Positions 22,835 through 62,025 of a DNA stretch of 64,000 nt are shown here, piece after piece. The position numbers and the translations under genes are program-made. The stretch's first letter is position 1; each line of letters starts with the position of its first letter. The stretch is taken from positions 496,001 through 560,000 of the forward strand of contig NZ_LBHB01000002.1 of assembly GCF_001010945.1 (NCBI RefSeq), in the 5' to 3' direction. This DNA is from Aurantiacibacter luteus (lineage in GTDB: Bacteria > Pseudomonadota > Alphaproteobacteria > Sphingomonadales > Sphingomonadaceae). The notes under the pieces are model-generated. The model saw only the letters and a list, made by a program, of their open reading frames with translations, did not search any database and was not told the origin of the DNA.

Positions 22835-23290
22835 ATGACAAGTCCCAGCACTCCGGCCCCTTCATCCGGCCTGTCACCTGCGTCCTTCTCGCCCATGACT
22901 GACACCCCCGACATCATCGCCCCGCTCCCCCCGTCGGAGCCCGGCTCGCTGCACGAGATGATCCTCAAGCAGCTCGACGACGACCAGGCGAGCGAGCTCG
23001 TCTCGATCCCGCTCGAGGGCAAGAGCTCGATCGCCGACCACATGGTCATCGCCTCGGGCCGTTCCACGCGGCAGGTTGCCGCCATGGCGAACAAGCTGGC
23101 CGAGCGGATCAAGCAGGAGGGCCGCGGCATCCCGCGCGTCGAGGGCCTGCCCGCCGCCGACTGGGTGCTGATCGATGCCGGCGACGTGGTCGTTCACCTG
23201 TTCCGCCCCGAAGTGCGCAGCTTCTACAACCTGGAACGCATGTGGGGTTTCGGCGAGGACGGCGAGACCCGGCAGATGGGCAGCGCGTGA
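22835..23290 (+). CDS. rsfS: Ribosome silencing factor RsfS
   Basis: RsfS binds ribosomal protein L14 and blocks subunit joining in starvation. The conserved core (LDDDQASELVSIPLEGKSS, IADHMVIASGRSTRQVAAMA, ADWVLIDAGDVVVHLF, FYNLERMWG) is complete. The start is unclear: this ATG gives 151 residues with a low-complexity N-terminal 20, while an ATG 60 bases later (MTDTPDII) gives a more typical length. Neither has a strong ribosome site; an AGGAG lies 15 bases before the first. The stop codon TGA is also the first triplet of repeat copy A. Confidence 0.93.
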   Translation: MTSPSTPAPSSGLSPASFSPMTDTPDIIAPLPPSEPGSLHEMILKQLDDDQASELVSIPLEGKSSIADHMVIASGRSTRQVAAMANKLAERIKQEGRGIPRVEGLPAADWVLIDAGDVVVHLFRPEVRSFYNLERMWGFGEDGETRQMGSA

Positions 23291-23400
23291 TTTGTTTTGC
23301 GAGCCCGCCTCCGCGGGCTCGTCCTTGCTATACGCACTCCGCTTCGCTGTGTGCCCGCTGCGGGCGGCCATTCGGCCCCTTCGGCGAAGCTCAGGACAGG
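23291..23400 (+). repeat. Modular hairpin repeat, copy A (between rsfS and rlmH)
   Basis: The copy starts TTTGTTTTG right after the rsfS stop. Its first hairpin is CGAGCCCGC-CTCC-GCGGGCTCG (23300-23321, perfect), followed by TCCTTGCTATACGCA, and its second hairpin is GGCC-ATTC-GGCC (23366-23377). Its end runs into CCCTTCGGCGAAGCTCAGG, which resembles the purE-purK inverted repeat. The remaining 47 bases up to rlmH hold only the rlmH ribosome site. It belongs to a six-copy family in this window. Confidence 0.85.
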
Positions 23401-23447
23401 CTTGCGGGCCGCTGGCCCGATCAACTTGATAACCGGGAGTTGGTGCT

Positions 23448-25168: not shown

Positions 25169-26500
25169 ATGAAACTTGCCGCCACCATCCGCGCCGCCGC
25201 GCTGTGCACCGCCGTCGCCCTGCTGCCCGCCACCACGGCCGGATACGCGCAGGTCGAGGGGCGCGCCTCGCCGGAATTCGCGCGGCTGTTCGCCACCTAC
25301 CAGCGGATCAAGGCAAGCTACGTCGACCAGGTGGACGACGAGGTGCTGATCCGCGGCGCCATCGACGGGATGCTGGCCTCGCTCGATCCGCATTCCGCCT
25401 ATCTCGACGGCACCGCGCTCGAACGTCTCAACACCATGATCGACGGCAATTACCAGGGCCTCGGCATCTCGGTGCAGATGGAGGACGGGGCGGTAAAGGT
25501 GATCTCGCCGTTCCGCGGCAGCCCCGCCGAACAGGCCGGTATCGCCGCGGGCGACTTCATCACGCACATCGACGGACGGCTGATCTATGGGCTCGAGATC
25601 GACGATGCCGTGGCGCAGATGCGCGGCCCTTCGGGCAGTTCGATCGAGCTGACCATCTTCCGCCCCGGCCGCGACAACAGTTTCGATGTCACCGTGACGC
25701 GCGGCGTGATCGAGCTGGAGCCGGTCACCTCCGAGCTGATCGAGGGCAACGTGGGCCACATCATGGTCAACGAGTTTTCCGCCGACGTGGGCTCGGACGT
25801 GCGCAATGCCTTGCGCGACCTGCAGTCGCAGGCGACCGGGCGGCTGACGGGCCTCGTGCTCGACCTCAGGCGCAATCCCGGCGGATCGCTGGACGAGGCG
25901 GTGGCGCTTTCGGACCTGTTCCTGTCCGACGGTCAGATCGTCTCGCAGCGCGGCCGCAACCGGCAGGACACCGTCACCTACGATTCCGAGACCGTCTATC
26001 GCGGCGACGTGGCCGAGGGGCTGCCGATCATCGTGCTGATCGACGAAGGCTCGGCCAGCGCCAGCGAGATCGTTGCCGGCGCGCTGCAGGATCACCACCG
26101 CGCGCTGGTGATGGGCGAGCGCAGCTTCGGCAAGGGCAGCGTGCAGACGCTGCTGCCGCTCACCCGCGACTCGGCGCTGAAGCTGACTACCGCGCGCTAC
26201 TACACGCCTTCGGGCCGCAGCGTGCAGGAAGGCGGGATCGAGCCCGACATCCGCGTGCCGCAGCTCTCCGACCCCGACGCCGAGCGCCGCCAGCGCCTGG
26301 CCCTGCGCGAGAGCGACCTGCGCGGCCACCTCGTCAACGAGGCCGGCGTGCGCGACGAGGCGCTCGAGCGCGACCGGCTCGACGACCCGCGCTTCCAGCT
26401 CACCGCCGCGCAGCTGGCCGAACAGGGCGTGACCGATTTCCAGCTCGACTACGCGGTACGGACCCTGCGCCGCACCGGCGGGGCGGTTGCGAGAAGGTAG
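25169..26500 (+). CDS. ctpA: S41 family C-terminal processing peptidase
   Basis: A 443-residue carboxy-terminal processing protease with signal peptide (ALCTAVALLPATTAGYA), an N-terminal helical region, a PDZ domain (YQGLGISVQMEDG to IDGRLIYGLEIDDAV) and the S41 catalytic domain. The catalytic serine is in GSASASEIVAGAL and the lysine in GERSFGKGSVQT. It degrades or trims periplasmic proteins and, in several bacteria, controls peptidoglycan hydrolases, which fits its place behind the EnvC-like gene. The ATG has no strong ribosome site; 79 bases separate it from the previous gene. Confidence 0.92.
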   Translation: MKLAATIRAAALCTAVALLPATTAGYAQVEGRASPEFARLFATYQRIKASYVDQVDDEVLIRGAIDGMLASLDPHSAYLDGTALERLNTMIDGNYQGLGISVQMEDGAVKVISPFRGSPAEQAGIAAGDFITHIDGRLIYGLEIDDAVAQMRGPSGSSIELTIFRPGRDNSFDVTVTRGVIELEPVTSELIEGNVGHIMVNEFSADVGSDVRNALRDLQSQATGRLTGLVLDLRRNPGGSLDEAVALSDLFLSDGQIVSQRGRNRQDTVTYDSETVYRGDVAEGLPIIVLIDEGSASASEIVAGALQDHHRALVMGERSFGKGSVQTLLPLTRDSALKLTTARYYTPSGRSVQEGGIEPDIRVPQLSDPDAERRQRLALRESDLRGHLVNEAGVRDEALERDRLDDPRFQLTAAQLAEQGVTDFQLDYAVRTLRRTGGAVARR

Positions 26501-26610
26501 GATCGGTTTGCAAACCCGCCTCCGCGGGTTTGTCCTCGCTAGACGCAATCCGCTGTGCTGCGGGCGCGCGTTCGCGCTTGCGGTCGGCTGATCGCCGACC
26601 GAACTTGCGC
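26501..26610 (+). repeat. Modular hairpin repeat, copy B (between ctpA and dsbB)
   Basis: Three hairpins follow the ctpA stop: CAAACCCGC-CTCC-GCGGGTTTG (26511-26532, perfect), GCGC-GTTC-GCGC (26566-26577) and CGGTCGGC-TGATC-GCCGACCG (26581-26601). The connecting sequence TCCTCGCTAGACGCA matches copies A and C. The remaining bases to dsbB show nothing further. Confidence 0.85.
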
Positions 26611-51008: not shown

Positions 51009-52301
51009 ATGTCCCCGTTCCCATGGCACTACCTCGCCGCGCTCGCCCTGCTGATCGTCCTCAACGGCGTGTTCGCCATGTCCGAGCTGGCGATCGTCTC
51101 CGCCCGGACCGCGCAGCTGCGCATGGCGGCGGAGCGTGGCAGCAAGAGCGCCGCGGTGGCGCTGCGGCTGGCCGCGGAGCCGGGCAAGTTCCTCTCCACC
51201 GTGCAGATCGGCATCACCCTCATCGGCGTGATTTCGGGCGCGGTGTCGGGCGCGACACTGGGCGAGCCGGTGGGCGAGCGGCTGGCGGCCCTCGGCATGG
51301 CGCCCGATACCGCGGTGAACGTCGGCTACGTTCTGGTCATCGCGCTGACGACCTTCTTCAGCGTGGTGATCGGCGAGCTCGTGCCCAAGCAGGTGGCCCT
51401 GCGCGCGGCGGTGCCGATCGCGCTGGTCATGGCCATCCCGATGGACCTGCTGGCCCGCGTGGCGGCGCCCTTCGTCTGGCTGCTCGACACGACATCCAAC
51501 CTGCTGCTTTCCGCGCTCGGCATCCGCCACAAGGGCGATCACAAGCTGACGGCGGAGGAACTGCAGATGATCTTCGCCGATGCCACCCGCACCGGCCTGA
51601 TCGAGGAGCAGGAACGCGCCATCCTCTCGGGCATCATGCGCCTCGCCGACCGCCCCGTGCGCGAGGTGATGACCCCGCGCGTGGAGATCGACTGGTTGGA
51701 CGTGCATGCGAGCGAGGCGGACATGGTCGAGACCTTCGAGGCTTCGCCCCACTCGCTGCTGCCGGTGGCCGAGGGGTCGGTCGACCGGATGCTGGGCGTG
51801 GTCAAGGTGCGCGAAGTATTGGCCCGGCGGCTGGAGGGACAGCCCGTCGTGCTGGCCGATCTGGTGCGCAAGTGCGAGGTGCTGCCCGACCAGCTCGACG
51901 CGCTCGATGCGCTGAGGATGCTGCAGCAATCGGGCACCGGCATGGCCATGGTGCACGACGAATACGGCCATCTCGACGGCATCGTCACCAATGCCGACAT
52001 CCTCGAGGCGATTGCGGGCACGTTCGCCAGCCACCAGGACGAAGGCGACGATCCGCTGGTGGTGGAGCGCGAGGATGGCAGCCTGCTCGTCTCCGGCGCG
52101 CTGGGTGCGGACGCGCTGGCCGAACGCCTCGGCATCGACCTTCCCGAAAACCGCGAATTCGCAACGGCTGCGGGCTATGCGCTCTATGTCCTCAAGCGCC
52201 TGCCGGCAGAGGGCGAGCACTTCACCGACCAGGGCTGGCGCTTCGAGGTAGTCGACATGGACGGGCGCAAGATCGACAAGTTGCTGGTGAACGAGGCGTG
52301 A
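51009..52301 (+). CDS. CNNM/CBS domain protein of the HlyC/CorC family
   Basis: A 430-residue inner-membrane protein. Residues 1-190 form the DUF21/CNNM membrane domain (GVFAMSELAIVSARTAQLR, STVQIGITLIGVISGAVSG), then a CBS pair (REVMTPRVEIDWLD; GTGMAMVHDEYGHLDGIVT) and a C-terminal CorC/HlyC domain. Probably a magnesium or cobalt transporter or its regulator; the old hemolysin label is misleading. The stop TGA begins repeat copy C. Confidence 0.9.
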   Translation: MSPFPWHYLAALALLIVLNGVFAMSELAIVSARTAQLRMAAERGSKSAAVALRLAAEPGKFLSTVQIGITLIGVISGAVSGATLGEPVGERLAALGMAPDTAVNVGYVLVIALTTFFSVVIGELVPKQVALRAAVPIALVMAIPMDLLARVAAPFVWLLDTTSNLLLSALGIRHKGDHKLTAEELQMIFADATRTGLIEEQERAILSGIMRLADRPVREVMTPRVEIDWLDVHASEADMVETFEASPHSLLPVAEGSVDRMLGVVKVREVLARRLEGQPVVLADLVRKCEVLPDQLDALDALRMLQQSGTGMAMVHDEYGHLDGIVTNADILEAIAGTFASHQDEGDDPLVVEREDGSLLVSGALGADALAERLGIDLPENREFATAAGYALYVLKRLPAEGEHFTDQGWRFEVVDMDGRKIDKLLVNEA

Positions 52302-52430
52302 TTTGATTGCGAAGCCGCCTCCGCGGCTTCGTCCTCGCTAGACGCACTTCGCTACGCTGCGTGCCCGCTGCGGGCGGCCGTTCGGCCTTGCGGTCGGCTG
52401 GTCGCCGACCGGACCAGCCTCGCAGACAGA
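52302..52430 (+). repeat. Modular hairpin repeat, copy C
   Basis: Three perfect hairpins: CGAAGCCGC-CTCC-GCGGCTTCG (52310-52331), GGCC-GTTC-GGCC (52376-52387) and CGGTCGGC-TGGTC-GCCGACCG (52391-52411). It starts TTTGATTG at the CorC-like gene's stop, and its connector TCCTCGCTAGACGCACTTCG matches copies A and B. It is tail to tail with copy D. Confidence 0.88.
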
Positions 52431-52437
52431 CCCATTT

Positions 52438-52560
52438 CGGTCCGAAGGACCGCAAGCGCGAATGCGCGCCCGCAGGTGCCGCGCAGCCGGAGCGCAGCCC
52501 CGGCGGAGCGAACAGCACCGAGGATGTCCGCGCGGAGGCGCGGACCAAAAACAAACAGAA
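52438..52560 (-). repeat. Modular hairpin repeat, copy D (inverted relative to C)
   Basis: Read on the minus strand: GTCCGCGC-CTCC-GCGCGGAC (52526-52545), then a GCTGTTCGCTCCGCCGGGG-type connector shared with copies E and F, then GCGC-ATTC-GCGC (52456-52467) and CGGTCC-TTC-GGACCG (52438-52452). It lies just beyond the 3' end of the minus-strand lipoprotein gene. The leftover 14 bases hold nothing noticeable. Confidence 0.85.
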
Positions 52561-52574
52561 AGTGATTGCCGGCG

Positions 52575-52985
52575 TCAGCCGGGAATCACGGCCCTCGCTG
52601 CCTGACCGTCGCCTTCGGGCGCGGCGATGATCGTGCGCACGTTGTTGCCGGTGTCGACGGTGTAGGTATCGGCATCACCCACATTGGAGCGGATGCCGGG
52701 GTCGGCCTGGCCGGCCAGCTGCAGCGTGCGGGTTTCCACCGCGCTGCGCTGCGAGGGGCCGCCGAACAGCGCGTCGAGCGCCTGCTGCGAGGCCGTGCCT
52801 TCCACCGGGCGCGGGGCGCCGGGGGCGGGGGGCACGAGGTGGAAGTCGGGCGGGATGACCAGCGGTGCCTGGCGCTGCACTGCGAACTCGTCGGGCCGGT
52901 CGCGGTTGCCGAGGTTGATGCCATTGCAGGCGGTAAGGCCGATGGCGGTGAGGCCGAGCAGGGCGATGCGGGCGGTTCTGGTCAT
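52575..52985 (-). CDS. DUF3035 family lipoprotein
   Basis: A 136-residue lipoprotein with signal MTRTARIALLGLTAIGLTAC and lipobox LTAC. The following NRDRPDEFAVQRQAPLVIPPDFHLVPPAPG is the conserved core of DUF3035; the rest is low-complexity. Function unknown; it is regularly encoded right after lspA, as here (ATGA overlap), which itself processes lipoproteins. It is the last gene of a long minus-strand run. Confidence 0.85.
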   Translation of the reverse strand: MTRTARIALLGLTAIGLTACNGINLGNRDRPDEFAVQRQAPLVIPPDFHLVPPAPGAPRPVEGTASQQALDALFGGPSQRSAVETRTLQLAGQADPGIRSNVGDADTYTVDTGNNVRTIIAAPEGDGQAARAVIPG

Positions 52986-60167: not shown

Positions 60168-60255
60168 CGCTCATCCTGAGCCTGTCGAAGGATTGTCCTT
60201 CCTGTCGACCCCGCTAGAAGAAAAAGCGACCCTTCGACAAGCTCAGGGTGAGCGG
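60168..60255. repeat. Inverted repeat between purE and purK
   Basis: Two 25-base arms, CCGCTCATCCTGAGCCTG... at 60168-60192 and its complement ending at 60255, pair with only two mismatches around a loop of about 37 bases. The arm sequence (CTCATCCTGAGC-TTGTCGAAGG) is a familiar dispersed palindromic repeat of alphaproteobacterial genomes. The rest of the purE-purK gap holds nothing else but the purK start region. Confidence 0.85.
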
Positions 60256-61475: not shown

Positions 61476-61703
61476 TTAGCGGGTTTGATCGTTTTTCGAA
61501 AGCACCTCCGCGCTTTCGTCCTCGGCGCTGTTCGCTTCGCCGGGGCTGCGCTCCGGCTGCGCGGCACCTGCGGACGGCCGTTCGGCCTTGCGAGCCTGCG
61601 GCCCGGCAGCTCCATAAAGCCCGCGCGCCTGCGACTTGCGGCGGTGCAGGTTCTCACGCAGCTTGGCGGCCAGGCGTTCTTTGCGGGTTGGGATGTCGCT
61701 CAT
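61476..61703 (-). CDS. Small basic hypothetical protein, C-terminus encoded by repeat copy E
   Basis: A 75-residue protein, not assigned to a function. The N-terminal part MSDIPTRKERLAAKLRENLH followed by RRKSQARGLYG looks like a conserved small sphingomonad protein with a basic helix. From about residue 32 the sequence (ARKAERPSAGAAQPERSPGE and on) is simply the antisense reading of repeat copy E, so the tail is recent and not conserved. The native stop was presumably displaced. It lies upstream of gpmA on the same strand. Confidence 0.55.
   Translation of the reverse strand: MSDIPTRKERLAAKLRENLHRRKSQARGLYGAAGPQARKAERPSAGAAQPERSPGEANSAEDESAEVLSKNDQTR
61490..61610 (+). repeat. Modular hairpin repeat, copy E
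   Basis: First hairpin CGAAAGCAC-CTCC-GCGCTTTCG (61497-61518, one A-C mismatch), connector TCCTCGGCGCTGTTCGCTTCG shared with D and F, then GGCC-GTTC-GGCC (61576-61587). The third hairpin seems eroded. It overlaps the 3' coding part of the small minus-strand gene. Confidence 0.8.
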
Positions 61704-61815
61704 GGCCATGGCTCTGCCGCAAGGCGCGCGCCGGCTCAAGCTTGGCTTGACTTTCGCCCGTCGCGCGACAATAGCGCGCGCCTGCCTGCCAGGACCATCC
61801 CCGCGCGGGCCCGGC

Positions 61816-61890
61816 GCTGCTGTAGCTCAGTGGTAGAGCGCACCCTTGGTAAGGGTGAGGTCGGGAGTTCAATCCTCCCCAGCAGCACCA
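61816..61890 (+). tRNA. tRNA-Thr (anticodon GGT)
   Basis: A complete tRNA with encoded CCA. Acceptor arms GCTGCTG and CAGCAGC pair fully, the D arm has GCTC...GAGC, the anticodon stem is CACCC/GGGTG with loop TTGGTAA (anticodon GGT, reading ACC and ACT), and the T arm is GGGAG-TTCAATC-CTCCC. It stands alone between the small minus-strand gene and repeat copy F. Confidence 0.95.
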
Positions 61891-61895
61891 TTCTT

Positions 61896-62025
61896 GATTT
61901 GCGCGGACGCCTCCGCGTCCGCGTCCTCCCTGCTGTTCGCTTCGCCGGGGCTGCGCTCCGGCTGCGCGGCAGGTCCGGGCGGCCGTTCGGCCTTGCGGAC
62001 CCTACGGGTCCGTCTCCTTCCTTTT
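61896..62025 (+). repeat. Modular hairpin repeat, copy F (downstream of tRNA-Thr)
   Basis: Three perfect hairpins: CGCGGACGC-CTCC-GCGTCCGCG (61902-61923), GGCC-GTTC-GGCC (61981-61992) and CGGACCC-TAC-GGGTCCG (61996-62012). It begins TTGATTTG six bases after the tRNA CCA end. The following bases up to the PH-domain gene show only a short T/C-rich stretch. Confidence 0.88.

Follow-up and report, generated by a model that had tools for sequence, protein, structure and literature searches.

Probable REPIN-like doublets with unlike halves and covarying hairpins behind gene ends in Aurantiacibacter luteus and its relatives

The stretch of the Aurantiacibacter luteus genome analyzed here, 64,000 nucleotides long and referred to as the window, carries six copies (A to F) of a modular repeat whose hairpin arms change jointly with pairing kept and whose two subtypes combine as the halves of an inverted doublet. 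Taken as a whole, the evidence makes it probable that the family is a large, untagged, non-coding REPIN-like heterodimer with a putative mobilizing or converting agent.

Architecture of the half-unit and the doublet

The copies were read directly in the sequence at the following positions of the window.

23291..23419, plus strand: copy A, subtype-1 half-unit
23300-23321, plus strand: P1 of copy A, 9/9 arm pairs
26501..26601, plus strand: copy B, subtype-1 half-unit with a shortened connector
26511-26532, plus strand: P1 of copy B, 9/9 arm pairs
52302..52556, no strand: doublet C+D, complete heterodimer between two convergent genes (by pair typing and by DNA and RNA folds)
52302..52411, plus strand: copy C, subtype-1 half-unit, left half of the doublet
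52310-52331, plus strand: P1 of copy C, 9-bp arms, 9/9 pairs, loop CTCC, with covariation
52438..52556, minus strand: copy D, subtype-2 half-unit, right half of the doublet
52525-52546, minus strand: P1 of copy D, 8/9 arm pairs
61487..61605, plus strand: copy E, subtype-2 half-unit, antisense in a small ORF (61476-61709, minus strand)
61497-61518, plus strand: P1 of copy E, 8/9 arm pairs
61892..62012, plus strand: copy F, subtype-2 half-unit
61902-61923, plus strand: P1 of copy F, 9/9 arm pairs

A half-unit consists, in order, of a leader about 10 nt long and rich in T, hairpin P1, TCCT, a connector that holds P2 and P2a, P3, a TTGCGG linker and P4. P1 has 9-bp arms and the loop CTCC, the TCCT behind it is nearly invariant, P3 has a 4-nt loop, and P4 is a variable hairpin on the 3' side of the linker. 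The first-pass annotation had described six modular copies with one shared layout. The copies are real, and the layout holds in general for all six, with the qualification that about 24 nt of other sequence (23378-23401) separates hairpin 2 from the TTGCGG linker in copy A and that part of the connector is missing in copy B. Its description of the hairpins was borne out by direct reading: hairpin 1 (P1) has the loop CTCC in 6/6 copies and arms that differ yet are complementary, with the one mismatch noted in copy E (8/9 pairs); hairpin 2 is GGCC/GGCC in A, C, E and F and GCGC/GCGC in B and D; and hairpin 3 (P4) is variable. In relatives, GGGC/GCCC is found in hairpin 2 at a roughly equal frequency. 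As a separate observation, the different motif of copy A points to repeats that are nested or mosaic.

P1 starts shortly behind a gene in five of the copies: 9 nt past the RsfS gene (22895-23290) in copy A, 10 nt past the S41 peptidase gene (25169-26500) in copy B, 8 nt past the stop (TGA 52299-52301) of a CNNM/CorC-type gene in copy C, 28 nt past the convergent DUF3035 gene (52575-52985, minus strand) in copy D, and 11 nt past the tRNA-Thr gene (61816-61890) in copy F.

Two connector subtypes (A, B and C versus D, E and F) had also been proposed, and these correspond to the two halves of an inverted doublet. Half 1 carries a GCTAGACGC...GCCCGC connector and half 2 a GGTGCTGTTCGC...GGCACC connector. 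Neighbors within 420 nt were oriented +- in 95 cases, ++ in 9, -- in 4 and -+ in 3, with duplicates from overlapping loci counted. Erythrobacteraceae-like loci contained 69 distinct convergent pairs, drawn, like the 241-copy stem set below, from a hand-picked part of the pattern-scan matches listed (at least 117 stretches, many of them chance matches in unrelated phyla); their 5' edges are mostly 220-256 nt apart (range 181-354). Sixty of the 69 were fully typed, as 1+2 in 50 cases, 2+2 in 8 and 1+1 in 2; the other 9 have an untyped half, and 3 of these reuse a half already counted. In the full unit of about 240 bp, the halves face each other with P1 and the T-rich leader outward. The P1 arms of partner halves are identical in only 2/46 rows, each doublet being counted from both sides.

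As single-stranded DNA, the doublet C+D is predicted to form a long stem with two P1 hairpins at its base (z -3.6), in which TCCTCG of one half pairs with CGAGGA of the other and the P1 hairpins remain separate. In the predicted RNA fold (z -4.3), the central stem and the P1 hairpins of the two halves persist, and the outer parts pair differently. Many copies are single, a point against the heterodimer reading: the typed copies of this genome comprise 10 in doublets, 2 whose partner is partial at the motif level and 16 singles, one of the singles having a weak partner match to covariance model R1 (see below). The top-scoring copy is a single one, unlike a dead remnant, as judged with a model built on this genome. 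A different arrangement was seen at G070:C1:2374893-2375728 (L391, L392), where four same-strand matches lie in about 840 nt, unlike the usual convergent doublets.

Pairing of the stems in DNA or in RNA

Two covariance models were used. In R1, the register of P2 is one column off, and R2 is the corrected model. The genome copy count, the surveys of congeners and of the family and the matches at the C-gene locus are based on R1, while the class-wide draw and a search over 344 kb are based on R2. In the 344-kb search, the six copies matched with E values of 3.8e-27 to 8e-17, five of the six (not A) being rows of the model alignment; copy A scores 92.3 bits with R2. Single-strand folding energies of the six copies (z -0.4 to -4.5) are by themselves not decisive.

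The claim that both arms change at once while pairing is maintained was confirmed in two ways. In a model-free test, perfect 8-bp P1 stems were found in 199 of 241 typed copies (a set that excludes copies with fewer than 5/8 pairs), whereas dealing out the 3' arms among the copies left 10.8 on average and never more than 20. When 120 copies were aligned to R2, both sides had changed in 490 cells, compared to 154 (sd 8.3) after shuffling and 16 to 93 in a slid-partner control, and 96.8% of the cells were paired versus 75.2% when shuffled. The covariation is carried by P1, P2a and P3; P2 is near-invariant and weakly supported. Complementary copies also proved numerous, as the first-pass annotation had required of a real family: the search with R1 returned 36 matches in this genome at E<=0.1, 33 of them below 1e-8, which amounts to about 33 copies, and 81 distinct 5' P1 arms were found, model-free, among 166 copies.

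Either a structured RNA or a processed single-strand DNA hairpin had been suggested as the cause of this pairing. RNA stems tolerate G.U, and a G.U on one strand is an A.C on the other; an RNA stem should therefore accumulate G.U. Distinct G.U and A.C events in P1, P3 and P4 of the 166 copies stood at 17:43 (p=0.001; P1 6:20, P3 2:8, P4 9:15), where P3 could be placed in 114 of the copies and P4 in 99, and a few P3 events come from doubtful stems. The ratio was 15:27 (p=0.09) for P1 in 267 matches from all loci, where off-target matches are possible, and 12:21 (p=0.16) in the 241 typed copies, so that the asymmetry is significant in one of the three sets only. For 27 tRNAs encoded in the loci, the vertical stem pairs gave 23:0, a control that is not neutral because ARAGORN prefers G.U over A.C. 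The safe conclusion is that the sense strand has no G.U excess; a G.U excess on the opposite strand is possible.

P1 was perfect in 28/38 copies that do not lie close behind a sense gene and in 81/96 that do (74% versus 84%, p=0.22). An apparent worsening of P1 pairing away from sense genes (p=0.0003) was discarded, as that set contained false P1 matches and the typed copies gave the p value of 0.22. Upkeep of the stems by a sense-strand RNA is thus unsupported, because A.C mismatches are at least as frequent as G.U and copies away from sense genes pair nearly equally. With no G.U excess in the sense strand, pairing is apparently maintained at the DNA level, and the single-strand DNA hairpin is the favored alternative. 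Strong stem covariation in a repeat is by itself not evidence of a functional RNA, and the G.U:A.C ratio should be checked as well.

Range, gene-end sites and turnover of occupants

R1 matches were present in all 18 of 18 congeners, with 1 to 53 per genome when this genome is included. In an order-level sample, 19 of 31 genomes were positive, namely this genome and the 18 congeners, and the 12 genomes from other families of the order gave no R1 match. At E<=1e-4, R1 matched 46 of the 149 family genomes searched and 30 of their 96 genera, although 13 of the 46 matched weakly (best E weaker than 1e-8). The class-wide draw with R2 (E<=1e-5) gave 2 of 190 genomes, this one and a second member of its family. 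A search of Rfam across the window at E values up to 1 found the tRNA and matched none of the six copies, and neither the phage nor the plasmid collection contained a match to the doublet C+D. Sub-threshold Rfam matches were noted at 60169-60253 on both strands (mir-515 and AaHKsRNA41, far below gathering scores); one weak match there falls on both strands and is probably a chance palindrome.

Copies lie mostly behind gene ends. The set of 166 distinct copies includes 10 that overlap a called ORF and 4 without a called neighbor. In the remaining 152, with both neighbors called, a same-strand gene lies upstream of 125, and the next gene is convergent for 92 of those. Between stop and P1, a spacing of 8-9 nt is the most frequent (43 of 125), and 89 of 125 have a spacing of 3-14 nt. 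Downstream of P4 (99 copies), T makes up 46, 39, 27 and 26% at the first four positions, which is no T-tract.

Among 196 copies in the genus, 39 sites are common to at least two genomes. Sites were assigned from the upstream flank, within the retrieved set of copies only, and this grouping makes reinsertion at hot spots and gene conversion indistinguishable. Identical P1 arms were found in 12.2% of 262 same-site pairs, compared to 5.8% at other sites of the same genome pairs and 8.8% between copies within genomes. Identity in same-site versus other-site pairs was 55% versus 56% for the loop, 56.5% versus 51% for the subtype and 35% versus 34% for the P3 arm. By position, site memory is present in the flank and small from about -10 inward; the leader, loop and connector have almost none, and P1 has a slight one (up to 0.11, at two positions). 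Within a genome, loop identity reaches 93.5%, the loop being nearly all CTCC in some genomes and nearly all ATCC in others, with G010 and G018 mixed; this uniformity may reflect concerted evolution or, alternatively, co-evolution with a trans factor. Across the genus genomes, CTCC is the commoner loop and ATCC is found in others, with little mixing, shared sites included.

Beside the C gene, an R1 match was found (by position) in 15 of 24 other loci, and at C-gene loci elsewhere the P1 arms differ or the opposite half comes first. At the B site, inspection by eye of 24 other loci found no full element. Downstream of the B-gene ortholog, three congeners (L175, L172 and L167) carry, again by eye, lone P4-like TTGCGGTC...GACCGATA-like stretches without P1-P3, which suggests decayed copies. 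Copy B may be old, because of these remnants at its site, and its candidacy as a fresh insertion was dropped. Copies seem to be exchanged between species at shared gene-end sites.

Copy E is the only clean gain seen. It lies antisense in a small conserved ORF whose frame is open throughout. This ORF could be located in 17 of 20 regions from congeners (in two of the 17, the translated frame began at a stop, but the DNA shows the short ORF), and the element lies inside it in 0/17. Other ORF-overlapping copies are located at ORF ends or within doubtful ORFs and were not counted as clean gains. As a side observation, the ORF at 61476-61709 (minus strand) gains a protein tail that is absent from the congener orthologs and resembles RPE-decorated proteins. 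The codons of congener G018 at the E junction read, in the orientation of the element, GTTTTTGGAAAGC, which agrees at 12/13 positions with the leader and outer P1 arm of E; other congeners match more poorly. Another genomic copy bears E's P1 3' arm and could be the donor. The connectors of E and F, 405 nt apart, share 40 identical bases in a run, and their P1 arms differ.

One conceivable explanation of this junction is that the hypervariable P1 stem arises, or is selected, when the element inserts, the outer arm being or matching target DNA and the inner arm being complementary to it, so that P1 would be the guide-target duplex of a putative enzyme acting on folded single-stranded DNA. This reading draws on one case, copy E. 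It is disfavored because the leader and P1 keep little site memory at old sites, unless occupants have been replaced, and we regard it as unlikely.

Mobilization, rival explanations and comparison with known repeats

A partner transposase of the REP-associated (TnpA-REP or RAYT) type, suggested earlier as a candidate, did not materialize. PF01797 (RAYT/Y1), the single enzyme family searched, had no match in this genome; of 26 genomes from the genus, counting this one, 24 lacked it and 2 had a match, and of 19 element-rich family genomes, 16 lacked it and 3 had a match. In the control, it matched in 5 of 14 known genomes. The two matches in the genus are L307 (G177) and L308 (G009). RAYT is therefore unlikely as the current mobilizer, and a RAYT that has since been lost, or that visits, is possible.

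Under the preferred reading of a REPIN-like heterodimer, copying or replacement of the unit would pass through a DNA intermediate that is either single-stranded and folded or cruciform. The arms would be kept complementary either by an agent that acts at the P1 ends or by gene conversion among the copies, and the same agent or process would homogenize the loop. The 1+2 mix may avoid a perfect palindrome, which nucleases would otherwise remove, as has been suggested for heterodimeric REPs (PMC3733652), and insertions would survive mainly directly behind a gene end. By analogy with E. coli REPs near stop codons, for which such effects have been reported, an influence on terminating ribosomes or on mRNA 3' ends is plausible.

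The most substantial rival is a functional structured RNA, in the form of a selected 3'-UTR element such as a 3'-end protector, a ribosome-stalling hairpin or a 3'-UTR-derived small RNA with a CCUCC loop. The strong covariation and the placement of P1 8-9 nt behind stops, or 11 nt behind the tRNA gene in copy F, speak for it, and so does the P1 loop, which we take to resemble the anti-Shine-Dalgarno core. In addition, REPs less than 16 nt from the stop codon lower translation in E. coli, according to the part of PMC12306157 that was available. However, a selected RNA of this kind would have to accommodate stems without a G.U excess, nearly equal pairing in copies away from sense genes, a subtype, loop and mostly also P1 arms that are not kept at a site, and the lack of any Rfam match on the six copies; we consider it rather unlikely. 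Intrinsic transcription terminators, bidirectional at convergent gene ends, would suit the location mostly at gene 3' ends, with a convergent gene next in 92/152, but no T-tract follows P4 in 99 copies and the T-rich leader sits before P1, which leaves this explanation highly improbable. A REPIN in the strict sense, mobilized by a RAYT (Y1) transposase, would account for the inverted doublets, the intergenic location and the coexistence of single and double forms, as in the available part of PMC3116915. The scarcity of PF01797 matches described above, the absent GTAG tag and half-units near 110 nt weigh against it, and we hold it to be very unlikely.

The first-pass annotation knew of no named element with this design. 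This stands insofar as none fits exactly, but the design itself is of the known REP/REPIN kind. REPINs are REP doublets tied to RAYTs (Bertels and Rainey 2011, PMC3116915, in the part available), and the present family resembles them, as there described, in having two inverted half-units as one unit, folding into a long hairpin, and being intergenic with singles as well. Inverted half-units at a set spacing are found in the 69 convergent pairs. In contrast to REPINs, the family comes without RAYT/Y1 and without a GTAG tag, none being found beside a 5-13 bp stem at the P1 base in the consensus of leader, P1 and connector; its halves are near 110 nt with several hairpins and mostly unlike, and its sites are shared between species with occupants exchanged. 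Since doublet design and position are shared whereas the tag and transposase tests failed, the family is termed REPIN-like and is not classed as REPIN. Furthermore, GT pairs are frequent in GTAG stems (PMC3733652, in part), unlike in the present family.

Many tagged REPs form inverted dimers near gene ends, and the CGTC families, mostly from Alphaproteobacteria, have no dedicated transposase and in some cases favor heterodimers, for which protection from nucleases such as SbcCD was suggested (Di Nocera et al. 2013, PMC3733652, in the sections available). As described in these sections, CGTC REPs are like the present family in their stems of 8-9 bp, loops of 4-5 nt, mostly inverted dimers, heterodimers in some families, proximity to gene 3' ends and lack of a dedicated transposase, and they are units of 20-40 bp with an unpaired CGTC tag and mostly a CCA tail. 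The stem of 8-9 bp and the loop of 4-5 nt are found in the present family. In the layout ascribed to Di Nocera et al., the CGTC tag reportedly stands at one side of the stem and a CCA-type tail at the other. Here, by contrast, the letters CGTC follow P1 with CG paired in most copies, the unit is far larger, and no CCA-type tail is present, the other side of P1 being TTTTG-like.

RIMEs are about 100 nt in size, and the core boxes of integron attC sites are GTTRRRY and RYYYAAC. No such boxes were seen by eye in the leader consensus, the region inspected for them. RIMEs and other rhizobial intergenic palindromes are named in the available part of PMC2573895, and the likeness, by description only, is that of alphaproteobacterial mosaic palindromic intergenic repeats. 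Rickettsia palindromic elements recall copy E in their in-frame insertion within ORFs; many of them are inside genes (PMC3733652, in part), whereas E is the sole clean case seen here. At the level of literature listings, no Erythrobacteraceae repeat family of this kind was named; in the parts available, Erythrobacter cryptus appears in the RepRanger table of REP counts (PMC12306157), and E. lithoralis is named for REPs inside genes (Di Nocera et al., PMC3733652).

For the CGTC repeats, the mobilizer of REP-like dimers that lack a transposase and the reason for unlike partners were left open in the available part of PMC3733652. The present family allows units, halves, sites and turnover to be counted in many species, and the shared sites, the exchange of occupants and of orientation, and the near-uniform loop within most genomes make gene conversion versus a mobilizing enzyme directly testable.
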